From Candidatus Nitrosopumilus sp. (lineage in GTDB: Archaea > Thermoproteota > Nitrososphaeria > Nitrososphaerales > Nitrosopumilaceae), in assembly GCA_029862085.1 (NCBI GenBank), contig JAOTXZ010000007.1, positions 1 through 55,785 of the forward strand: a stretch of DNA of 55,785 bases. The letters run 5' to 3'. A program made the translations under genes and the position numbers. Under the pieces are notes generated by a model. It made no database searches, had not been told where the DNA came from, and saw only the letters and a program-made list of their open reading frames with translations. Shown piece by piece: positions 28,762-51,362 of this stretch (position 1 is its first letter; each line of letters starts with the position of its first letter).

Positions 28762-29715
28762 TCAAAACCTTTTGTACTGTTTTTCTGTTTCCCTGCGACT
28801 CTTGTTACCAAACTTTACTGGAACCTTTTCACTCCATGCAACATACTCACGTTTCCAAAAATCATGATTGTTATCCCCTTCTGCTAATGCATGGTTTGAA
28901 GTATTTACAAAAATAACAGGATGATTTGAATCCTGAAAATAGTATTTTATGGGAACTTGTGCTTTTAGGTGTATGTTGTCTTCAAACAAAATGTGTTTCC
29001 CACTATAATTATCTTCAAAGTAAAATTCCTCACCTCGAACCTCAAAGGATTCAATGTCTACAGTTCTTCGGTATCTGAAATATCTAAAAATCCTGTAAAT
29101 AAAATCAAATACAAAATGTTTTCTGAGGTTTTCATCTTCAAAAACAAGTGTAATCTTACAATAATCATTTTTTTTATCCACCTGAATTTCTCTAAGTATG
29201 TTTTTCCATGCATCAATGGCTGGTTGATACACTACTGGCATTAATTCAGAATATTTTTCAAAATATCCAGGGTCAATTATTTTTGGAGTTTCAATGGGTT
29301 TTCCCATTTTTTGCTCTATCTCAGAAAACAATAACGTTAAATCATCCTTATTCTTAGAGGCAATCCTCACATTTTTTAGATCTCGATGCTCCAGATCACG
29401 GCTTTGTTGAATTTCAAAGCCAAGTTGATATTCAGATTCTGGAATTACTTTGGTTGCAATAAAACCCATCATCAGATTCAAAGTAAAATCAGAATCCACA
29501 AAAGTAGAATGACCAGATATTTCTCGTCTTATTATTATTCTTGCTCTTCCCTCATCTAATCCTATGACATCAACGGAACAATTATCATACTGGTGTGAAC
29601 GTTCTTCATTTTTCCACCCCAATCTCCTTTTATGCTCTTTTAACTCATCGTATGCTTGTTGTATGTAAGAGAACTGAAAATTCAGCTTTAATTCTCGAAT
29701 CGAATTTTGCGACAT
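28762..29715 (-). CDS. Protein of unknown function, third gene of the GMC oxidoreductase operon
   Basis: This 317-residue protein is rich in aromatic and charged residues, with no signal peptide or membrane span. Distinct segments are LNFQFSYIQQAYDELKEHKR, ARIIIRREISGHSTFVDSDF, a helical middle, FRYFRYRRTVDIESFEVRG, and a basic C terminus. It starts 3 bases after the stop of the GMC oxidoreductase gene, so the two are surely co-transcribed. I recognise no domain. It may be a partner or accessory protein of the oxidoreductase. Confidence 0.75.
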   Translation of the reverse strand: MSQNSIRELKLNFQFSYIQQAYDELKEHKRRLGWKNEERSHQYDNCSVDVIGLDEGRARIIIRREISGHSTFVDSDFTLNLMMGFIATKVIPESEYQLGFEIQQSRDLEHRDLKNVRIASKNKDDLTLLFSEIEQKMGKPIETPKIIDPGYFEKYSELMPVVYQPAIDAWKNILREIQVDKKNDYCKITLVFEDENLRKHFVFDFIYRIFRYFRYRRTVDIESFEVRGEEFYFEDNYSGKHILFEDNIHLKAQVPIKYYFQDSNHPVIFVNTSNHALAEGDNNHDFWKREYVAWSEKVPVKFGNKSRRETEKQYKRF

Positions 29716-29718
29716 TGA

Positions 29719-32427
29719 TTATCCTGTTCTTTTTAAAATAAAGGATAAGCCTATTCGTGTTTGATTATCCGCATTTTTTTCTACCCCAAGAAAGCTAAAT
29801 CCGGTTTCTTTTGCAAGTTTGGGCCATCTAAAACGGAATTTCCTAGTGATTCCATCTAATGATTTACTATGTTCTCTGGCGACCGGAACGGGGAGAATTC
29901 GTTTAAAATCATCAATGAAGGATTTTAATGCATTTTGATTAGACCAGTCAGATACCCATCTACCTACAGCAAAATTTGGTGTTACCATTCGGATTTCATC
30001 ATGGAAAATTGTTTGGTCATCCATTTTGAATAATTGATTAGATATGGAAAGATCCGAGCGACCACGAATCATGTTTGCAAAAGAATATCTCATATCAATT
30101 TCTCCATCTTCACTTTCAAAATGAAATATCTGAGAACGGGGACTAACTGCAGAATCTGAAACCAACATCCCTTCCCATTTTCCAACGATTTCATTTCCCT
30201 TTGGAGAATGACTAAATTTAGAATTGTTGAAAATTGTTAAAAGATCATCTTCAGTCATAAAATCAACATCATAAACTCTAGACATGCTAAAATTGAAGAG
30301 TTCTCTACCACGTGGAAATTCTCCCAGGAAGGCTTTACCAATAAGGGTATCTTTATCAATCATTTTTAGTAAATCATACGCGATGGTATAGGGATGATCC
30401 AAATATCTTAATCGAATAACGGTTCCGTAACCTGGAACGTTTTCTTCTGTTGCCAAACTTTTTGCATTAACTATTTTGGTTTCAAAGGGATGTGTAATTC
30501 CACGGAATGATTTTGAATTGTTTTTTTCGAATCGTTTGTAAAAACCTCCAAAAAAACGAAGCCCAGTTGTCATCAAATTAATATCGCGTCCGTAAAATCC
30601 TTTCCAGAATACATTATTTGTGATTTCTAGTGTTTTTGGATTAAATCTCCAATTCTTATTAGGAATTATTCTTTCTTCTTTTGAGTTAGCTAATTCTGAA
30701 AACAAGCGTTGTTTATGGTCAACTATTGCAAATTGTTCTCCTAGATTTTTTGAAAGACCATATCTTGGTTGTGACAAGGTACATATTTTTCCAAGAGACC
30801 TCTTTACAGGTTTAAATGTTTTCCATTTTTTAATAATTTTGTTTGCCGTTATTGTAGCTAAGGCCATAATTGTTTGCTGTGGATTGACTCCAATGGGAGT
30901 TGGAAAAACACTTGCATCACAAACATACAGATTTTTAAAACCAAAAACTTTACAATCTGAATCTACAATACAATTTTTAGGATCATCTCCCATCTTGTTT
31001 CCACCCTGTGGATGCGCAGACCCGAGCATTAATCCATCAGGATTATTTCTTACGGCATCTCTGAGTTTAGGAATATCTGCTTTTGTTCCTATTTCCGGAA
31101 TATCTCTATGAGATGTTACAAGGGAGGTAGCACCAACAGAAAACCAAAATCTAGCTAATATTCCCATTCCTCTGGCCATATCATCAATAGTTTGGGAAGA
31201 AAGATCATAGGAAACCTTTGGATGATCATCATATGTAAGGGTGATTTTTCCATTTGGTTCATCTCGAACCATGACTCCTGCCATTGTATAATGATTAAAG
31301 TCCATCATGAGTCGTCTATGATTTTTCTCAAAACTAGGAATTGCAATTGCCATCTGAAAAACTGGTAAAAAAATACTCTCAATTAAAAATCCCCCATTTT
31401 CTACTCCATTAGTTACACCGAATTCATGGCAAGTATACGACATTGGAATTCCTCTATTACCGAAAATTTTTTCCTTAAATCTGCCCATAACAAAGGGGGC
31501 AGGGTGAAGCGCTAGACCCTTTCCAACATTTTTTCCTCCGATGTTGGATTTTTGTAACAAATTTGAAGAAGCAATTGATCCTGCTGACACAATTACTATT
31601 TTAGAATTTACACGAATTCGAAATTTCTCATTTCCCTGTTCGTCAATAAATGTGCCATCTACTCCTGTTACATTTCCATTTTCCTGAGTAATTTTATCTG
31701 CTTTACAGTTACAGTATGCTGTAAAATTTGCTTTTGTATTTTGAAGTGCATCATGGATGTAAGTTACCAACATACTTTGTTTTGTATCATAATGACACCC
31801 AAGATGGCAAAAACCACATTGCATACAATCCGTTAAGCTTGAATCAGTAAAGGAGGGCCCGCAATTTCTATAATTATATCTATGGTCTATTTTTTTATCA
31901 TATAGCCTAAAATTCTCACATGCTTTTTTTAATTTCTTTGCGTTTTCATTCAATTCATTTGGTTTAACCTTTGTAATATGAATTCGTTTGACAACTTCTT
32001 TATTTGATTTTTTCCATTCGGATTCACTAATTGCGACTTTCATTTTTTGCCATTGTTTAATTATGGTATAAGGAATATCAAAACACACTGCATCATTAAT
32101 TACAGTGGAACCTCCTAAACAGGAGCCTTGTGCAATAGCAATTTTTAAATTTGCTGTAAAGTTTGCACCCGCATTTTTCCATAAAAGGGGCATCATATCT
32201 TCCTCCCTCTGATTCATAGACTCTCCATCATAGTATCCTCCTCTTTCTAGGAGGATCACTGATTTGCCGGCTTCTGAAAGTTTCGTTGCTAAAATCGCCC
32301 CTGCAGCCCCAGAACCAATCACGCAAACATCAACATCGCGAATAATGTCTCTAGAAATAACATCGTATGGTTCCTGACGTTTCTCAAAAGCTTCCGTACC
32401 AAAAATGCAGTTCATGATTTTTTCCAC
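29719..32427 (-). CDS. GMC-family FAD oxidoreductase with a large extra C-terminal domain
   Basis: In this 902-residue protein, residues about 30-540 form a GMC flavoprotein. It has the FAD motif VIGSGAAGAILA (residues 37-48), QGSCLGGSTVIN near 100-111, and a Cys motif C-x2-C-x2-C-x3-C at 201-211 (CMQCGFCHLGC). The C-terminal HPQGGNKMGDD and PIGVNPQQTIMALA segments complete it. Residues about 580-902 are an added beta-rich region (WKGFYGRDINLMTTGLRFFG, WEGMLVSDSAVSPR, VGRWVSDWSN) that I cannot name; it might bind the substrate. GMC enzymes oxidise alcohols, sterols or sugars. There is no signal peptide. It overlaps the upstream gene by 16 bases. Confidence 0.88.
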   Translation of the reverse strand: MEKIMNCIFGTEAFEKRQEPYDVISRDIIRDVDVCVIGSGAAGAILATKLSEAGKSVILLERGGYYDGESMNQREEDMMPLLWKNAGANFTANLKIAIAQGSCLGGSTVINDAVCFDIPYTIIKQWQKMKVAISESEWKKSNKEVVKRIHITKVKPNELNENAKKLKKACENFRLYDKKIDHRYNYRNCGPSFTDSSLTDCMQCGFCHLGCHYDTKQSMLVTYIHDALQNTKANFTAYCNCKADKITQENGNVTGVDGTFIDEQGNEKFRIRVNSKIVIVSAGSIASSNLLQKSNIGGKNVGKGLALHPAPFVMGRFKEKIFGNRGIPMSYTCHEFGVTNGVENGGFLIESIFLPVFQMAIAIPSFEKNHRRLMMDFNHYTMAGVMVRDEPNGKITLTYDDHPKVSYDLSSQTIDDMARGMGILARFWFSVGATSLVTSHRDIPEIGTKADIPKLRDAVRNNPDGLMLGSAHPQGGNKMGDDPKNCIVDSDCKVFGFKNLYVCDASVFPTPIGVNPQQTIMALATITANKIIKKWKTFKPVKRSLGKICTLSQPRYGLSKNLGEQFAIVDHKQRLFSELANSKEERIIPNKNWRFNPKTLEITNNVFWKGFYGRDINLMTTGLRFFGGFYKRFEKNNSKSFRGITHPFETKIVNAKSLATEENVPGYGTVIRLRYLDHPYTIAYDLLKMIDKDTLIGKAFLGEFPRGRELFNFSMSRVYDVDFMTEDDLLTIFNNSKFSHSPKGNEIVGKWEGMLVSDSAVSPRSQIFHFESEDGEIDMRYSFANMIRGRSDLSISNQLFKMDDQTIFHDEIRMVTPNFAVGRWVSDWSNQNALKSFIDDFKRILPVPVAREHSKSLDGITRKFRFRWPKLAKETGFSFLGVEKNADNQTRIGLSFILKRTG

Positions 32428-33026
32428 TTTACTTTATGAGGACTGTGTTCTGTTCTCCATGGGAACTTGGGAACTAGAGGACCATCATACCCAATTTTTC
32501 GCCAAGAATGCTCATTATTGTAATTTGCCCATGCATGAAGAGTACTAAGGAACATTGTAAAGACCTGTTGTAAATTATCGGTAAAATCTGCACGCTGTTC
32601 AAAACCTGAAAATGATCCCATCCTTCTATTCGTTGCATCCGAAAATGGATCTTCTTTTGGTTTTACCTTATTTTCAAAAGAATTAGGATCTAATGATATT
32701 TTAAAAGCCAATCTTGTTTTTTGTGTTTTTTTCACATCTTTTCTTACTTTAGTAGTATGAATTACCTCTCCACGATTATTTCTAAGTTTTAGATAGATAT
32801 CGGGACCTTTCTCAAATATTTTAAAACGCTCCATGAATTGTTTTTCATTAAAACTTATCCTAAAATTTCCATCCTTTTTTGTCCAAGCGCTTCCAAGGAG
32901 ATCATCAATTCTATCCTCGAATACACCTTGATCCCTTTCAAGCACCTGAACAAGTATGTCTTTTACAGGTTTACCAAAAGAATTTGTAATTAAACCAGAA
33001 ACATGATAATCTGCCATACTATTCAA
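32412..33026 (-). CDS. Protein with a transthyretin-like beta domain, first gene of the GMC operon
   Basis: In this 204-residue protein, residues 4-110 look like a carboxypeptidase-regulatory/transthyretin-like beta sandwich (YHVSGLITNSFGKPVKDILVQV, WTKKDGNFRISF, IYLKLRNNRGEVIHTT). A variable C-terminal part follows with Trp/His (LHAWANYNNEHSWRKIG). There is no signal peptide, so it is probably cytosolic. It overlaps the GMC gene by 16 bases, which indicates tight co-expression. It could present or bind the substrate of the oxidoreductase, but the function is not known. Confidence 0.72.
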   Translation of the reverse strand: MNSMADYHVSGLITNSFGKPVKDILVQVLERDQGVFEDRIDDLLGSAWTKKDGNFRISFNEKQFMERFKIFEKGPDIYLKLRNNRGEVIHTTKVRKDVKKTQKTRLAFKISLDPNSFENKVKPKEDPFSDATNRRMGSFSGFEQRADFTDNLQQVFTMFLSTLHAWANYNNEHSWRKIGYDGPLVPKFPWRTEHSPHKVKWKKS

Positions 33027-43882: not shown

Positions 43883-45223
43883 ATGGCAAATATCACATTT
43901 ACAATTCCATCTGTGTTAAACCAAGGAGAGGGAGAGAAAAAGACCGAAATCGCAGCTGACTCTCTAAATGATGCATTTACAAAAATATCTGAGTTAATGG
44001 GAGATGACTTTAAGAGAAGAGTATTAGAAAATGATGGGACTCCACGTTCTCTAATAAACATCTACATTAATGGAAAAAATGCCAAATTTACAAACGGGAT
44101 GGACACTTCACTTAATGATGGTGATGAGGTATACATTTTGCCTGCAGTTGCCGGAGGATCAGGTGAACTATCCCCAAAAGAATTAGACAAGTTCTCCCGA
44201 CAGGTAATGCTTGAAGAAATTGGTTATCAAGGTCAATTAAAGCTAAAAAATGCCAAAGTCTGTGTTGTCGGTGTTGGTGGACTTGGAAATCCCATAACAT
44301 CCCGACTCGCTGCAATGGGTGTTGGTACATTGCGTATAGTCGATAGAGATGTAATCGAGTTATCTAATTTACATCGCCAAACAATGTTTGATGAAGATGA
44401 TGTAGGACAAATCAAAGTAGAAGTGGCTGCCAAAAAATTACAGAAACTAAACCCTGATTGTAAAATTGAAGCTCTAGCAGTATCAGTTAATGATTATACC
44501 GCACTTGAGGTAATTGAAGGATGTGACGTTGTAGTTGATGCACTAGATAGTGTTAATGCCAGATATTCATTAAACAAGGCATGCGTTAAATTAAACATTC
44601 CATTTGTTACAGGAGCTGCAGTTGGAGTCTCAGGTCAGGCCTTTACAATTCTTCCTAAAATAACCGCTTGCTATTACTGCATGTTCCCATCTTTAGATGA
44701 GGATTCAATGCCTACATGCAGTATAGAAGGAGTTCATCCCTCAATACTATCAATCATTGGCGGAATCGAGGTAACTGAAGCAGTAAAGGTAATTTTAGGC
44801 AAAAAACCAGGTTTATCTGAGAAAATATTACATGTAGATATTGAAAATCTTGATTTTACTACCACTAGAACATTCAGAGCTGAAGAGTGCTCTGTTTGCG
44901 GAACAGGTAAAGCAGAAGAAGTGGTAAAAGAGGAATTAATTTTAGAAGAACTATGTGGCAGAAACAGAGGAAAAAGGACCTTCTCTATAACACCTACTTG
45001 CACATTTGATCTAGATGTGAATTCAGTAACTGGAGTCGCAAAGGAGAAAGGATTTCTTATTGACAACCAAGGTGAGTTGGGACTATCCTTGCGAACAAAT
45101 GAAATGTCAGTCAGCTTCATGAAAAAGGGATCAGCCGTAATCGTAGGACCGAAAGACGAGGAAGATGCAATTTCACTCTACAATGAATTGCTAGGCAAAA
45201 CCTTGGCAAAACCTGCAAATTAA
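43883..45223 (+). CDS. Ubiquitin-like (MoaD/ThiS) domain fused to an E1-like adenylyltransferase
   Basis: In this 446-residue protein, residues 1-92 form a beta-grasp domain (INIYINGKNAKF, LNDGDEVYILPAVAGG) ending in Gly-Gly at 91-92. Residues about 95-345 form a MoeB/ThiF E1: LDKFSRQVMLEEIGYQGQ, the ATP loop VVGVGGLGNP at 129-136, VDRDVIELSNLHRQ. Zinc cysteines are at 263, 266, 336 and 339, and Cys279 lies in the DSMPTCSIEGV loop. Residues 345-446 are the usual E1 C-terminal extension. The E1 would adenylate the Gly-Gly end of a sulfur carrier, but here the Gly-Gly is internal. It starts one base after thrC. Roles in molybdopterin, tRNA thiolation or amino-acid sulfur transfer are all possible. 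Confidence 0.88.
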   Translation: MANITFTIPSVLNQGEGEKKTEIAADSLNDAFTKISELMGDDFKRRVLENDGTPRSLINIYINGKNAKFTNGMDTSLNDGDEVYILPAVAGGSGELSPKELDKFSRQVMLEEIGYQGQLKLKNAKVCVVGVGGLGNPITSRLAAMGVGTLRIVDRDVIELSNLHRQTMFDEDDVGQIKVEVAAKKLQKLNPDCKIEALAVSVNDYTALEVIEGCDVVVDALDSVNARYSLNKACVKLNIPFVTGAAVGVSGQAFTILPKITACYYCMFPSLDEDSMPTCSIEGVHPSILSIIGGIEVTEAVKVILGKKPGLSEKILHVDIENLDFTTTRTFRAEECSVCGTGKAEEVVKEELILEELCGRNRGKRTFSITPTCTFDLDVNSVTGVAKEKGFLIDNQGELGLSLRTNEMSVSFMKKGSAVIVGPKDEEDAISLYNELLGKTLAKPAN

Positions 45224-45395
45224 AATTCTGTAATTAACAACAAAGCTACATCAATTAATTTACCAAAATTTGAAATTATTTTTTGTACGGATGAAAAGAC
45301 AAAAACCATTTAATCAAACTCATACTATTTACAGTGTAATACCAAAATGTTACAGATATAAAATTTAAAATGATCCTCAAATTATTAAAAAAATT

Positions 45396-46424
45396 ATGAT
45401 ATCTGCATCTAAAGAAGGTCATTTTACAAAGTTTGAAGAAAAATCCGATCCAATAAATGAAGATACTAGTTTAACAGTAAAGTTAGAAGCATGTGGTATT
45501 TGCGGTTCAGATTTGGGAAATATTTTTGGAGATTCGACCAAACCAACAGAAAAAATTGGACATGAAATATCAGGAACCATTGTTAGTAAGGGAAAAAATA
45601 TTAATAATTTTGATGTGGGAGATAGAATTTTTGTTCATCATCATGCTTCATGTGATGAATGTTATTTTTGTAAACATGGCAATCAAACTATGTGTGAACA
45701 ATTTGTTGATAGTTTAGAGCCATGTGGATTATCTGAGAAATTTTTAGTTCCCACATGGATTCTAAAGAAAGACGCCATAATAAAAATTCCAGATTCTATG
45801 ACCTTTGAAGAAGCAGCATTGATTGAACCGCTGGCATGTTGTGTGAGAGCTTTGAAGAAAATTTCTATTTCAAATAATGATTCTGTAGTAATTTTTGGTG
45901 CAGGATCAATTGGTGCAATGCATGGAATGCTAGCAAAATTTTTTGGCATTAAACAAATTTATTTTATTGATCCTAATGAGACGAAACTAGATTTTATTGA
46001 AAAAAATAACATTGGTATACCTTTACGATTAAACCCTGAACAAATTCAAAAAATGATTCTAGAGAAGACAAATAATCGAGGAGTGGATTTGGTAATTATA
46101 GCTACCTCCAACATGACAATTATTAAGGAGGCTATTAATTTGGTAAGAAAAGGAGGGACGATACTTTTGTTTGGTGAGCCAAACAAAGATGCAAAAATTG
46201 ATCTAGATTTTAGTAAGGTGTATTCAAAGGAAATATCAATAATTCCAACATATGCTGCCTCCATGGATGATGTGAACCAAGCTTTTGACTTGATAAATAA
46301 AAAACAAGTCAACGTAGAACAACTAATTACACACCAATTCCCCTTGAGTGAGCTAAATCAAGCCTTACAACAGGCACAATCCGGGAAAAATTCAATGAAG
46401 GTTGTAATTAGGCCTGATCAGTAA
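45396..46424 (+). CDS. Zinc-dependent medium-chain alcohol dehydrogenase
   Basis: This 342-residue protein has catalytic zinc ligands Cys33 (EACGICGSD) and His56/Glu57 (KIGHEISG). The structural zinc lobe has Cys86, 89, 92 and 100 (SCDECYFCKHGNQTMC). The nucleotide-binding motif VVIFGAGSIGAMHG is near residue 166. It resembles sorbitol, threonine and other polyol dehydrogenases, so the substrate is probably a polyol or sugar derivative with NAD(P). It converges on the Ebo-like operon and overlaps its last gene by 17 bases. A functional link is possible but inferred only from position. Confidence 0.86.
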   Translation: MISASKEGHFTKFEEKSDPINEDTSLTVKLEACGICGSDLGNIFGDSTKPTEKIGHEISGTIVSKGKNINNFDVGDRIFVHHHASCDECYFCKHGNQTMCEQFVDSLEPCGLSEKFLVPTWILKKDAIIKIPDSMTFEEAALIEPLACCVRALKKISISNNDSVVIFGAGSIGAMHGMLAKFFGIKQIYFIDPNETKLDFIEKNNIGIPLRLNPEQIQKMILEKTNNRGVDLVIIATSNMTIIKEAINLVRKGGTILLFGEPNKDAKIDLDFSKVYSKEISIIPTYAASMDDVNQAFDLINKKQVNVEQLITHQFPLSELNQALQQAQSGKNSMKVVIRPDQ

Positions 46425-47730
46425 AAAATTTTAAAATCAGTGGGCTCAACTCGGTCATATCTATAATTTCTGGCAATTGCTGTGACTTATCTGACATTAC
46501 AAAAATAGGAAGATGATTGATGTCTTCTTTTTGAAAGACGCCATGAGATCCCTTAATTAGAGATGTGTCAAGTGAGATGGTTTTGGTTGATGGGTCAAAA
46601 AACAACTCTAATGGATCAAAACCAGGTTTTCTGTGAATATCAACAGTGAATGCAAATGGCGGAGCCTTTGTAATTTCATCCCACCAATAATAATTAAACC
46701 AATAATTATTTTCAGAACATAAAATTAGTTCTCCACTTTTTGGATGGTTGATGTGATTTTCCTGTTGTAAATTTTTGTCCATTATTTGTGATATTCCTTC
46801 TAGGTTTTCAAAAATTTTTTTAACTTTTTCTTCATATCCAGACTTTATGTATACGTGGGCCATTTGATGATCCACCATTGCAAAAGCCTTACTATACTCA
46901 TAATCGAGATAATCTTTTCCACCAATGGTCCTAGTAGATAACAGACCTTCATTTCTTAAAATTAAATTTGGTGATAGTGAATGATTTACAGAATTAAATC
47001 CATATTCTGATAAGATAATTATTTCATATTCATTTTTTCTGTCAGAATAAAGAAATTCTATAAAAATCCCTAGAATTTTATCCAACTCTAAAATACTTTG
47101 TTTAAACTCATCACTTTCAGGACCATGTTTTTGTGCGGAATAATCTAAATGTGGAAGATAAACCATCAATAAATCAGGATTGTGTTTTTTTATTGTATAT
47201 TGAGCAGCATTTAATATCCATTGACTGGATTTTAGCGAAGCTAGTGGACCCCAATACCATTTTAAATCAAATTCTCCAAGTTCTTCTACAACTTCTTCAT
47301 AGTAATTTACAGGTTTTGAGTAACACCACAATTCTAACTTGTTTTCATGATGAATAGGTTTTGGTGTAATTACAATATCTGAATTTATGTAAAGAGAGTT
47401 TTGCCAGAAAAGAACAGCAGTTTTTAAATTTGGATTTGATTTTTTTAAAACGTCCCACAGGCGTGGTTTTTTGACTAAACTGCCTGGCTGTTCCCAAAAA
47501 GAGACTGTTTTTGAGTTCCTATCATAATACCCGTTTGAAATAATTCCATGCTTTGATGGATGATATCCAGAAGTAATGGTTGCCTGAACGCTGCATGTTA
47601 CAGCCGGAAACGATGGGATTATTGATGAAATAGAACCATTTTTTAAAATTTTTGAAATGTTAGGAAGAGATAATTTATCTAAATCACTTTTTGTTAAACC
47701 TACTACATCAATAACTATGAGTTTTTTCAT
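46408..47730 (-). CDS. Alkaline-phosphatase-superfamily phosphodiesterase/pyrophosphatase, EboF-like
   Basis: This 440-residue protein has the metal/nucleophile segment IIPSFPAVTCSVQATITSGYHP (Thr nucleophile) near residue 40. It also has LMVYLPHLDYSAQKHGP, ILSEYGFNSVNH in place of the usual SDHG, AFAMVDHQMAHVYI, and a C-terminal KGSHG. This is the nucleotide pyrophosphatase/phosphodiesterase branch, in the variant with SEYG. There is no clear signal peptide. It is the last gene of the minus-strand operon with a UbiA protein, two TIM barrels and a TatD-like protein, where it would match EboF. Its 3' end overlaps the convergent dehydrogenase by 17 bases. Confidence 0.85.
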   Translation of the reverse strand: MKKLIVIDVVGLTKSDLDKLSLPNISKILKNGSISSIIPSFPAVTCSVQATITSGYHPSKHGIISNGYYDRNSKTVSFWEQPGSLVKKPRLWDVLKKSNPNLKTAVLFWQNSLYINSDIVITPKPIHHENKLELWCYSKPVNYYEEVVEELGEFDLKWYWGPLASLKSSQWILNAAQYTIKKHNPDLLMVYLPHLDYSAQKHGPESDEFKQSILELDKILGIFIEFLYSDRKNEYEIIILSEYGFNSVNHSLSPNLILRNEGLLSTRTIGGKDYLDYEYSKAFAMVDHQMAHVYIKSGYEEKVKKIFENLEGISQIMDKNLQQENHINHPKSGELILCSENNYWFNYYWWDEITKAPPFAFTVDIHRKPGFDPLELFFDPSTKTISLDTSLIKGSHGVFQKEDINHLPIFVMSDKSQQLPEIIDMTELSPLILKFFTDQA

Positions 47731-47771
47731 TGTATAATCGACATATTGATTCTCTAAAATAAATTCATAGC

Positions 47772-48629
47772 TTATGTCAAATACATTCTTCGTGTAATAA
47801 AATATGCAGGCACAAATAGAATTAAAGTTATAATTGCAAAAATTAATTCCGAATAGATTGATAGTAAAGTAGCATCAAGTATTATAATTGAAAGTAGTTG
47901 AAAGGTTACTTTTTTTTGAATATTGGTGTTAGTTTTGTCTTTGTAAAAATAAAAAGGAACAAAAATAATAAAGATGAAAATTCCAATAAAGGCATAGAAA
48001 ATAATTTCTCCTCCAAAGGCTAATAGATTAACGTAAAATACAGTTGCAATTATAAAGATCAGGTTTAGAATTTCGGCTCTTTTTGAATATTGAGAGTCCT
48101 CAGTTTTTGCAAAAATACTAATTCCTGCAACTAAAATAGCAACAGGTATTGCAATTAAAATAACCTCAATGCTTAAGGCAACTATCGTGGTTCCTAAAAT
48201 AACATTAAAGAACCTTATCAAAGAAAGATTAAGAATACTCATTACTGGAATATTTTTTAATTTAATATCGTAAAGTAAAATGAACCCAGTCATTAAAAGG
48301 GAAACTAGAAGTGTTTGAAATCCTACAAGGGCCGAACAAATGTTTGCTAAGACCAAAAAACAGAGACCTAGATAAAATGCATTATTTTTTGAAATTCTCC
48401 CTGATGGTAAAGGCCTTTCTGGTCTTTGTTTTTTATCAAGAGGAAAATCAAAAAAATCATTGAAAACCATTCCAGCAAAAAATAAGCAGCCAGATGTTGC
48501 TAAAAGAAGTCCCAAATATAACCAATCAAATGCTACTTGTTGAACCACAAAAAAACCAAGCAGTACATTTGAAAGTACAGTAAAAATTCCTGGAAAACGA
48601 ATTAATTGTAGATAAGTTCTAACCAACAT
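47772..48629 (-). CDS. UbiA-superfamily prenyltransferase, EboC-like
   Basis: This 285-residue polytopic membrane protein has about nine hydrophobic spans. The first Asp-rich motif NDFFDFPLDKKQRPERPLPSG lies at about residues 57-77, and a shorter second motif YDIKLKNIP lies near residue 121. UbiA enzymes attach prenyl chains to polar or aromatic acceptors. The operon context (TIM barrels, TatD-like and phosphodiesterase) matches EboC rather than a quinone, chlorophyll or archaeal lipid enzyme, though geranylgeranylglyceryl phosphate synthase-type roles cannot be excluded. It overlaps the preceding isomerase gene by 11 bases. Confidence 0.88.
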   Translation of the reverse strand: MLVRTYLQLIRFPGIFTVLSNVLLGFFVVQQVAFDWLYLGLLLATSGCLFFAGMVFNDFFDFPLDKKQRPERPLPSGRISKNNAFYLGLCFLVLANICSALVGFQTLLVSLLMTGFILLYDIKLKNIPVMSILNLSLIRFFNVILGTTIVALSIEVILIAIPVAILVAGISIFAKTEDSQYSKRAEILNLIFIIATVFYVNLLAFGGEIIFYAFIGIFIFIIFVPFYFYKDKTNTNIQKKVTFQLLSIIILDATLLSIYSELIFAIITLILFVPAYFITRRMYLT

Positions 48630-49446
48630 TAGCCATAGAATTTAAAAAATTTCTAGCGTCTTGTGCTGCATTAAATGGATTATCCAGATATGGGTACAAT
48701 TCAATGGTAACATAACCATCATAATTAATCTCAGATAGCGCATGAAAAATTCGTGAAAAATCAATAGCCCCAGTTCCTGGAACAAGATGTTGGTGCTCTC
48801 TTGATGCTGCTATATCTTCAAGATGAACATGATTGATATGTTCCTTGAGTGTGAAAATCAAGTCTGCAGGATCTTCACCTACACAAAAGAAATGACCCAC
48901 ATCAAAATTTAATCCAATAAACTCTGAATCAAATCGTGAAATAAAATCAAGAAACTGGGAAGATTTTTCAATCAACAATCCAGGTTCTGGCTCTATTAGG
49001 ATTTTTATTTTATTTTTTTCGGCAATAGGTAGAACCTCGTTTAATCCCTGTTCAAAAATATCCAGCTCCTCCTCTCTTGACAAGCCTGTAGGAGGGCCTC
49101 CCGGTTCAGTTGATACAGTATTTGCTCCTAACTCTTTTGCTAAATCAATGCAATTTTTTGTATGTTCAATTCGTTTCTGTCGATAAATCTGGTCTTTTTC
49201 TATCCATGATGGGTGGTGAAAATCCTCAATAGCACACATCATAAAACCATTAAGATTTGATATGGTCATTTGGTTTTCTATTAATGTTTTTTTAATAGAT
49301 TCAATTTTGTCTGAGGATAGTGGTGGAAATGCATGTGGTTCATCGCACATTAATTCAATTGCAGAATATCCTGCAGAGGATATAGATTTTATACTATCTT
49401 CAATAGAAAAATTCCTGTAGGCATTGGTACTAAAAGAAAGTTTCAT
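48619..49446 (-). CDS. Sugar phosphate isomerase/epimerase-like TIM barrel, EboE-like (copy 2)
   Basis: This 275-residue xylose-isomerase-like barrel begins KLSFSTNAYRNFSIEDSI, with YSAIELMCDEPHAFPPL. Metal-binding residues appear in IKILIEPEPGLLIE (Glu), LNFDVGHFFC (Asp, His), HINHVHLEDIA (His), LVPGTGAIDF and YVTIELYPY (Glu). A full metal site suggests an active isomerase or epimerase. It resembles the gene at 50253-51083 (shared FSTNA start, PHAFxP, GLLIE and ELYPY motifs), so the two are paralogues. It starts 7 bases after the TatD-like stop. Confidence 0.87.
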   Translation of the reverse strand: MKLSFSTNAYRNFSIEDSIKSISSAGYSAIELMCDEPHAFPPLSSDKIESIKKTLIENQMTISNLNGFMMCAIEDFHHPSWIEKDQIYRQKRIEHTKNCIDLAKELGANTVSTEPGGPPTGLSREEELDIFEQGLNEVLPIAEKNKIKILIEPEPGLLIEKSSQFLDFISRFDSEFIGLNFDVGHFFCVGEDPADLIFTLKEHINHVHLEDIAASREHQHLVPGTGAIDFSRIFHALSEINYDGYVTIELYPYLDNPFNAAQDARNFLNSMANVG

Positions 49447-49453
49447 TGTATCA

Positions 49454-50251
49454 CTATAATGGAATGTAGTTTTTTGATTGCTTGAAAAAATTATTTGGGT
49501 TGTGAAATAGAACTTTTTCTATCTCTATTTGAGAAAAACCATCGTTCTCCATTTGAATTGCAGTCTTGGGAACACTAAGGGGATCAGATCTTCCCCAATC
49601 AGCAGAGCTGTTAATTAAAATCCTATCAGTACCAAATTTTTTTAAAATATTTGCTGCTCTAATTGGAATTAATTTTGTGTTAGGGTATACGGTAATTCCT
49701 GCCATCACATCATGAGATAAGGATAATTCAATTGTTTCTTCAGTATTATGATCCATTATTATTCGTGATTCTGTAACATTGCATTCTTTCATGATTTCAA
49801 AAGTTTTTTTTGTTCCCTCAAATTTGTTTAAGTGTGGTGTATGAATAATGACGGGCAACTTGAGTTCTTCAGCTAGCAAAAGTTGAGCTTTAAAAACTTC
49901 CTCCTCTTGTTTTGTGATTCTATCAAATCCAATTTCACCTAAAGCTACTACTCCCTTTCGGGAAAGGTAATCTTTCATAACGAGCAGAGATTCTTGAGCA
50001 AGTTTTTCATTATTTGCCTCTTTTGGATTAATAGAGATTGCACAATAATGGTTGATTCCAGATTCTTTTGCCCTGGTTGGTTCAAATGAAATAATATGTT
50101 CCCAGTAATCTATGAGAGTTTTTGATGATGTTCGTTCCTGTCCTAGCCAAAATGAAGGCTCAATTACAGATTTTATCCCAGCCAGAGCCATATTCTCATA
50201 GTCATCAGTTGTTCTAGAATACATGTGGATGTGGGGATCAATGAATTTCAT
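49454..50251 (-). CDS. TatD-like metal-dependent hydrolase, EboB-like
   Basis: This 265-residue amidohydrolase-fold protein has the metal motif FIDPHIHMYSRTTDDYENMA at the start (His7 and His9), IEPSFWLGQ, VALGEIGFD, VIIHTPH, IMDHNTEE, and INSSADWGRSDPLSVP near the end. All the expected His/Glu/Asp ligands of the TatD type are present. The SRTTDDYE and EPSFWLGQ segments are more specific than general TatD nucleases and fit the EboB branch. It sits one base from the upstream isomerase gene. Confidence 0.88.
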   Translation of the reverse strand: MKFIDPHIHMYSRTTDDYENMALAGIKSVIEPSFWLGQERTSSKTLIDYWEHIISFEPTRAKESGINHYCAISINPKEANNEKLAQESLLVMKDYLSRKGVVALGEIGFDRITKQEEEVFKAQLLLAEELKLPVIIHTPHLNKFEGTKKTFEIMKECNVTESRIIMDHNTEETIELSLSHDVMAGITVYPNTKLIPIRAANILKKFGTDRILINSSADWGRSDPLSVPKTAIQMENDGFSQIEIEKVLFHNPNNFFKQSKNYIPL

Positions 50252-50252
50252 C

Positions 50253-51083
50253 TTACTTCATTAATTTGTTGAAATACATTATTGTTTCTTTGGCAGCCTT
50301 TTCGGGATTGGTAGAATATGGGTACAGTTCTGCAGTTAGAAATCCCTTGTAGTTTATATCCAATAAGGCTTTGTACATGGTTTTAAAATTAATCTCTCCA
50401 ATACCTGGAATAAGATGATAATGTATTTTATTTTTACAATCACTAATGTGGGTGTGAAAGAGTTTGGGACCTAATTTTTTTATTATCTTTGGAATGTTTT
50501 CACCCAAAACTGCCGCATGACAAACATCAAAATTTACTCCTAAATTCTTGTATTCGTTTGAAATAAATGGTTTCACATCATTGAATTTCTCAATTAGTAG
50601 TCCTGGTTCATATTCGATTCCTATCAGAACTCCTTTTTTTTCTGCGTACGGTAAAATAATATCCAGAGAATCTCTAAATCTTGCCAAGCTTTCTTTTTTT
50701 GTTGAATTTCCACCCAATCCCGAAGTAATACAAATTGATGGTGCGTCAAGCTCTTCTGCCAAATCTATTGATTGTTGGATATTTTTGATTCTCCATTTAC
50801 GCATCTTTTCGTTTTGATTTGATAAAGAAGGTTCAAATTTTTCAATATTTAGCTTATTTTTGTACCAACCTACAACAGTGTTAGCATTTAGATTTGTAAT
50901 TTTTAATTGATTTTGTTTTATTTTATTTTTAATATTACCAATACGTGTTTTAGTTATAGGTAGGAAAGCATGAGGTACATCTAGAACAATTTCAATTCCA
51001 TCAAAACCTGTCTTTGCTACAGAATTTATCGCAAAATTTAGCGATTTTTTTACAAATGCATTGGTACTAAATCCTGTTTTCAT
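50253..51083 (-). CDS. Sugar phosphate isomerase/epimerase-like TIM barrel, EboE-like (copy 1)
   Basis: This 276-residue paralogue of the barrel at 48619-49446 begins MKTGFSTNAFVKKSLNFAI, with FDGIEIVLDVPHAFLP. Its metal-site segments are VLIGIEYEPGLLIEK, LGVNFDVCHAAVLGE, LFHTHISDCKN, LIPGIGEINF and FLTAELYPYS. The metal ligands look intact. It is the first long gene of the Ebo-like operon, 9 bases downstream of a 48-residue gene. Two different barrels in one operon suggest two consecutive or paired sugar transformations. Confidence 0.86.
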   Translation of the reverse strand: MKTGFSTNAFVKKSLNFAINSVAKTGFDGIEIVLDVPHAFLPITKTRIGNIKNKIKQNQLKITNLNANTVVGWYKNKLNIEKFEPSLSNQNEKMRKWRIKNIQQSIDLAEELDAPSICITSGLGGNSTKKESLARFRDSLDIILPYAEKKGVLIGIEYEPGLLIEKFNDVKPFISNEYKNLGVNFDVCHAAVLGENIPKIIKKLGPKLFHTHISDCKNKIHYHLIPGIGEINFKTMYKALLDINYKGFLTAELYPYSTNPEKAAKETIMYFNKLMK

Positions 51084-51092
51084 TGGTTTTCG

Positions 51093-51239
51093 CTATAATT
51101 CTTGAAAAGCAGAAATTAGATCTGCTGAAGCTTTTTTAACGATTGTAGGATTTATGTAGGAATCTGGTTTAATTTTTTTGGCAGCCTCCCAAACTAGATT
51201 TTCAATTGTTGTGTTCCTTTCATGTTCTTCTCGTGACAT
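51093..51239 (-). CDS. Small protein (48 residues) at the head of the Ebo-like operon
   Basis: The frame runs from ATG 51237-51239 to TAG 51093-51095. The product is polar and helical (MSREEHERNTTIENLVWEAA, KKIKPDSYINPTIVKKASAD, LISAFQEL). It has no cysteine or membrane segment. A TATA-like box lies about 25 bases upstream and the next gene begins 9 bases downstream, which is the normal arrangement of a first cistron. I do not recognise a family; it is too short to be EboA. Confidence 0.55.
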   Translation of the reverse strand: MSREEHERNTTIENLVWEAAKKIKPDSYINPTIVKKASADLISAFQEL

Positions 51240-51269: not shown

Positions 51270-51362
51270 ATTACACCAATTTGATAATTCCTATACCCAA
51301 CATAGGTAGAAAAATCCTCAAAAAACCTGCAAATTAAATATCATTACCTGATATTAATTTCC

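Follow-up and report, generated by a model that had tools for sequence, protein, structure and literature searches.

A probable Ebo-family gene cassette without recognizable EboA, EboG or EboD in a Nitrosopumilus genome

Six tightly packed genes and a convergent dehydrogenase gene in the thaumarchaeon Candidatus Nitrosopumilus sp. very probably constitute, to judge from their sequences, a cassette of the Ebo family. They lie in a stretch of 55,785 nucleotides (contig JAOTXZ010000007.1, assembly GCA_029862085.1), the whole of which we call the window. In cyanobacteria, Ebo proteins have been linked by one study to the export of a scytonemin precursor, with a periplasmic role in Nostoc (PMC6282210), and a prenyl-cyclitol has been proposed as the Ebo product (PMC5133447). 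The literature searched, which left out most subscription journals, yielded no previous account of Ebo genes in archaea. Pfam and NCBIfam profile scores are given in bits, and the features that concern us are the following.

51093-51239, minus strand: 48-amino-acid protein, the operon's first gene, without a known family
50253-51083, minus strand: TIM1 (TIMb), 276 amino acids, xylose-isomerase-like TIM barrel of isomerase/epimerase/dehydratase type; PF01261 (AP_endonuc_2), 138 bits
49454-50251, minus strand: EboB, 265 amino acids, TatD-like metal-dependent hydrolase; Pfam TatD_DNase, 60 bits
48619-49446, minus strand: TIM2 (TIMa), 275 amino acids, EboE-like TIM barrel, shorter than EboE; PF01261, 165 bits
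47772-48629, minus strand: EboC, 285 amino acids, UbiA-type membrane prenyltransferase; Pfam UbiA, 91 bits, NCBIfam EboC, 164 bits
46408-47730, minus strand: EboF, 440 amino acids, alkaline-phosphatase-superfamily (AP) protein of nucleotide pyrophosphatase (NPP) type; Phosphodiest PF01663, 191 bits
45396-46424, plus strand: zinc-dependent medium-chain dehydrogenase, belonging with the operon to one inserted unit
45208-45224: left copy of AAAACCTGCAAATTAAA, the moeB 3' end
51322-51338: right copy of AAAACCTGCAAATTAAA, followed by TATCATTAC, which is what follows moeB in insert-free sister species

All six minus-strand open reading frames were found where a first-pass annotation of this DNA had placed them, no more than 41 bases apart (9, 1, 7, -11 and 41 bases in transcription order), and Pfam confirmed the families named there for the five larger genes (two TIM barrels, TatD, UbiA and AP). 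The block is not a chance assembly, because the TatD-TIM-UbiA-AP series recurs in relatives and the 48-amino-acid reading frame recurs at the operon head. The proposal that the UbiA, TatD and AP proteins belong to the EboC, EboB and EboF families was upheld by profile score, tree and signature residues. Among NCBIfam models the UbiA protein scored best with EboC (164 bits, E-value 4e-48; curated cut-off 250 bits, which it does not reach), followed by the SCO3242 type (91 bits), and the archaeal lipid-type models gave 47-80 bits. The three other UbiA proteins of the genome scored 36 bits, 24 bits or nothing against the EboC model. In the alignment, Arg139 is present in 95 of 95 Ebo-type UbiA rows and in none of the 5 other UbiA rows, Glu177, at the site of the second Asp-rich motif of other UbiA enzymes, in 93 of 95, and the NDxxDxxxD motif is intact. 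A check for grouping with archaeal lipid or quinone enzymes revealed none, although the root of the UbiA tree is weakly supported (74; all trees were quick searches with support from the Shimodaira-Hasegawa-like approximate likelihood ratio test, SH-aLRT, only). A function as digeranylgeranylglyceryl phosphate (DGGGP), quinone or haem O enzyme was rejected on profile scores. We conclude from sequence comparison that the UbiA protein is a divergent member of EboC.

The TatD protein shows 40-47% identity to bacterial and haloarchaeal EboB proteins, and in a tree of 77 EboB-type and 8 other rows it falls inside the EboB clade, whose dividing branch (SH-aLRT 91) sets it apart from E. coli TatD, YcfH and YjjV, from the thaumarchaeal housekeeping TatD and from AF_1765. 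The His/Glu/Asp metal site of EboB is intact in the alignment, and the genome holds one other TatD protein, on contig C24. EboF, which is 35-41% identical to its bacterial and haloarchaeal namesakes, carries T45, D196, D287, H366 and H396 like every one of the 110 Ebo-type rows, and Q200 and E242 like almost every one; H288 is likewise invariant across these 110 aligned proteins, as are D287 and H366. When plasmids were searched, Ebo-type EboF matches reached 240-333 bits versus at most 90 bits for other PF01663 proteins, and the branch dividing EboF from the latter has a support of 100, with two outgroup rows only. No other PF01663 protein was found in the genome, and the predicted EboF structure (pLDDT, the predicted local distance difference test, 94) adopts an NPP-type fold with a template modelling (TM) score of about 0.66.

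The two TIM barrels bear a looser relation to EboE. Against the EboE model, with its cut-off of 250 bits, TIM2 scored 42 and TIM1 19 bits, and both proteins, at 275-276 amino acids, are short compared with the approximately 380 of EboE. TIM2 is 42-47% identical to a haloarchaeal TIM barrel lying between TatD and UbiA, and in the TIM tree the EboE and TIM2-type proteins share one clade (support 99), in which EboE occupies a long branch. TIM1-type proteins fall outside that clade; TIM1 is 37-40% identical to a second haloarchaeal TIM barrel and has a counterpart in the TIMb protein of Paenibacillus phytorum (locus L091). The metal ligands E, D, H and E are conserved in TIM1, and the metal-ligand histidine, kept in TIM1 and TIM2, is mostly lost in EboE. 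As far as sequence can tell, TIM2 groups with EboE, yet it is not an EboE by model, length or active site, and TIM1 is an older, separate paralogue with its own relatives in haloarchaea and Paenibacillus. The earlier idea that EboE is doubled in this operon was therefore not borne out.

The 48-amino-acid protein has no Pfam or NCBIfam match, and no match to EboA or EboG was found; homologues that are 40-51% identical occupy the same operon-head position in several genera of Nitrosopumilaceae. The dehydrogenase, which overlaps the end of the EboF gene by 17 bases, gave its best scores with threonine dehydrogenase (157 bits) and scyllo-inosose 3-dehydrogenase (131 bits), all under cut-off. The first-pass annotation had noted its convergence on the operon, which we confirmed, but had treated it as a mere neighbour: because it is missing together with the operon at this site in four sister species of the genus, we count it as a member of a seven-gene module. 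In these four species no more than about 30 bases separate moeB from the gene after it, which in the window lies beyond the operon. A copy of the moeB 3' end stands on either side of the insert, and the sequence after the right copy equals the sisters' post-moeB sequence. Insertion, the presumed direction of change, is the simplest reading of this repeat. No other stretch of equal length in the window is as AT-rich as the block (31.7% GC), and the junction of moeB with the dehydrogenase gene recurs in another genome of the genus, that of Nitrosopumilaceae archaeon Ww602. Other genera carry the same seven genes at other sites; in locus L045 they separate two genes that adjoin one another in L038. 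Judged from these junctions, the seven genes are a unit, an accessory cassette. No integrase was seen in the block, and a transfer RNA gene as integration target was rejected, the window having none. One sister species (G092) has two moeB-type genes (contigs C17 and C26), 90% and 85% identical to that of the window.

The gene order is conserved among relatives, as the first-pass annotation had left to be checked: the TatD-TIM-UbiA-AP block, complete or cut by a sequence end, surrounds the UbiA match in almost every one of 29 loci from relatives, and it is conserved in two thaumarchaeal families. Ebo-type EboF occurs in 16 of 250 genomes of the window's family (at least 627 bits; all other matches at most 34), and in the sampled wider phylum matches of at least 495 bits were confined to this family and family f3 of the same order, other groups giving at most 56 bits. 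Two thaumarchaeal arrangements recur. Type I, that of the window, reads small protein-TIM1-TatD-TIM2-UbiA-AP with the dehydrogenase adjoining the AP gene, convergent in general and codirectional in Nitrosopelagicus. Type II reads TatD-TIMa-UbiA-AP-TIM3, as a rule with another dehydrogenase upstream; its best models, both under cut-off, are IolM (scyllo-inosose dehydrogenase, 143 bits) for this dehydrogenase and IolO (5-keto-L-gluconate epimerase, 152 bits) for TIM3. Some thaumarchaeal genomes retain only UbiA-AP-TIM3 together. Related clusters are present in haloarchaea, Planctomycetes and Paenibacillus, with no EboE seen at the loci compared, which are a capped sample. In the EboF tree, the proteins of EboA-, EboG- and actinobacterial-type clusters form one clade (support 100), outside which the thaumarchaeal, Paenibacillus, haloarchaeal and most planctomycete proteins fall.

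In the Paenibacillus phytorum cluster the order TIMb-TatD-TIMa-EboC-EboF is identical to that of the window, and EboC passes its cut-off (269 bits); unlike in the window, two genes follow whose products resemble myo-inosose-2-dehydratase (226 bits) and an AroB-type cyclase (225 bits), both under cut-offs, and no dehydrogenase was seen. The haloarchaeal plasmid clusters (Natronococcus, Halocatena, Halobaculum, Haladaptatus) share the TatD-TIMa-UbiA order, TIMb and EboF orthologues and the lack of recognizable EboA, EboG and EboD, but at 3 of the 4 loci an inositol-3-phosphate synthase gene is part of the cluster and adjoins EboF, and no linked type I dehydrogenase or 48-amino-acid protein was seen. 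Ebo-like clusters, mostly with inositol-3-phosphate synthase, stand at haloarchaeal loci L059, L061, L062, L066, L098 and L125, in plasmid records without Ebo annotation. With the ebo operon of Bacteroidetes, Cyanobacteria and eustigmatophyte plastids (EboA-F; PMC5133447, PMC6282210) the window shares compactness and the EboB, EboC and EboF lineages, and one of its TIM barrels is related to EboE; it differs in lacking a recognizable EboA and EboD, in the short TIM2, and in its additional TIM1, dehydrogenase and 48-amino-acid protein. The EboG-type operon of Deinococcus and others (PMC5133447) has no EboA, of which none was recognized in the window either, and, in Deinococcus (L060), the same TatD-TIM-UbiA-AP order, whereas no EboG or EboD was found in the window, whose EboF lies outside the EboA/EboG clade. 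The Streptomyces SCO3242-type cluster also combines TatD, UbiA, EboF and a short TIM barrel, but itself has EboA, full-length EboE and inositol-3-phosphate synthase.

The absence of EboD, claimed for this locus together with that of EboA, could be extended: no EboD-type cyclase (PF01761) scored over cut-off in the genome itself (78.6% complete) or in 28 thaumarchaeal genomes. For EboA the claim holds less firmly, since neither EboA nor EboG had a match in the cluster or beside it with the profile models built for them, but both are poorly conserved, EboG was modelled from one sequence and the 48-amino-acid protein belongs to no known family. Weak PF01761 matches of 20-21 bits in relatives, to frames of 319-354 amino acids, likely stem from glycerol-1-phosphate dehydrogenase, which has the same fold. 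Inositol-1-phosphate synthase (PF01658) is clearly present in all 28 thaumarchaeal genomes, with or without the cassette, and would make a cyclitol precursor available in them; searching for inositol-phosphate synthase with PF07994 instead yielded nothing but weak, patchy matches. Besides the common one, a divergent paralogue of inositol-1-phosphate synthase, scoring 74-83 bits, was seen in G079, G157, G219, G281, G320, G015, G109 and G329. We claim no link between it and the cassette: it occurs in several type II genomes, yet also in a cassette-free one, and other genomes that carry the cassette do not have it.

We tentatively favour, with slightly more doubt than belief, the reading that the cassette, in which no EboA, EboG or EboD was recognized, represents an archaeal branch of the Ebo pathway and makes a prenyl-linked polar lipid. 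The dehydrogenase and the two TIM barrels would produce or modify a small polyol, cyclitol or keto-sugar, possibly from inositol 1-phosphate, and EboC would attach an isoprenoid chain to this polar product. The hydrolase EboB and the phosphatase-like EboF, which would act before or after EboC, may trim the adduct or pass it on at the membrane, where the prenyl-linked polar lipid may serve as a membrane metabolite or as a carrier across the membrane. Cyclitol or polyol chemistry is favoured because haloarchaeal and actinobacterial clusters carry inositol-3-phosphate synthase, because the P. phytorum and type II clusters have inosose-, cyclase- or keto-sugar-like neighbours (all under cut-offs), and because inositol-1-phosphate synthase is universal among the 28 genomes. 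Prenyl transfer is favoured because the Asp-rich motif of EboC is intact and a bacterial EboC farnesylates in vitro (PMC9235831). Several observations weigh on the other side. Inositol-1-phosphate synthase is present in cassette-free genomes as well, so that its occurrence does not show a functional link to the cassette. The preference of the bacterial EboC for quinoline carboxylic acids (PMC9235831) fits an aromatic acceptor equally, and in Paenibacillus sp. A3 (L090, 11071-12624) a gene for an HpaB-like 4-hydroxyphenylacetate 3-monooxygenase (677 bits, cut-off 885) directly follows UbiA-AP-TatD, which hints at an aromatic substrate in that variant. Finally, when the EboF family is aligned with nucleotide pyrophosphatases, the Thr nucleophile and the last His are kept, as is one Asp, but Val, Gln, Glu and Tyr replace the Asp, His, Asp and His that we take, from the Xanthomonas enzyme, to bind metal. 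A changed site or a non-catalytic role of EboF is possible.

These observations also bear on other explanations of the cassette. It is unlikely, though worth weighing, that the proteins act as an export module that would jointly export from the cytoplasm a thaumarchaeal metabolite made independently of them, any prenyl product being only the carrier; such a role has been proposed for scytonemin in Nostoc, but the cassette contains neither biosynthetic genes for a candidate cargo nor a transporter, and it sits at differing sites without a constant partner. We consider it less likely still that EboC farnesylates an aromatic or quinoline-like acid that the other enzymes prepare or tailor. The in vitro specificity of bacterial EboC and the monooxygenase gene of Paenibacillus A3 speak for such a product, whereas thaumarchaeal, haloarchaeal and most bacterial clusters have no aromatic-modifying gene and the constant partners are sugar- or polyol-type enzymes or cyclitol synthases. 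That the block is a sugar- or inositol-breakdown operon which includes a UbiA gene incidentally strikes us as improbable: the TIM barrels and the dehydrogenase do resemble inositol-catabolic enzymes at the superfamily level, but UbiA, TatD and EboF are fixed partners with lineage-specific residues in two domains of life, and the block has no transporter or kinase. Very improbable is an operon of housekeeping character built around an archaeal lipid (DGGGP), quinone or haem O enzyme. The nearest solved sequence to the UbiA protein is a DGGGP synthase (47 bits); against this role stand the three other UbiA proteins of the genome, the profile scores, the Ebo-specific Arg139 and the lack of the cassette in most relatives.

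Elsewhere in the window, three minus-strand open reading frames of 317, 902 and 204 amino acids lie at 28762-33026, of which the 902-amino-acid frame apparently encodes a GMC-type or flavin adenine dinucleotide (FAD)-dependent oxidoreductase fused to a further region.

Ebo clusters are known in many bacterial phyla and in plastids, and are here found also in two archaeal phyla. It is possible, if rather doubtful, that EboB, EboC, a short EboE-like TIM barrel and EboF represent in Thaumarchaea, haloarchaea, Planctomycetes and Paenibacillus a third main Ebo lineage, outside the EboA/EboG clade, in which the cyclitol-forming step is exchangeable, being supplied by an AroB-like cyclase, an in-cluster inositol-3-phosphate synthase or a housekeeping inositol-phosphate synthase. 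If so, Ebo would be a general prenyl-cyclitol lipid pathway in two domains of life. As a natural variant in which no EboA, EboG or EboD is recognized, the cassette defines a minimal core of EboB, EboC, an EboE-like protein and EboF, and the family-wide loss of canonical metal ligands questions the usual description of EboF as a phosphate hydrolase. The occurrence of close species with and without the cassette makes a direct comparison of lipids or metabolites possible, and the relatives in haloarchaea draw attention to a group that is amenable to genetics.

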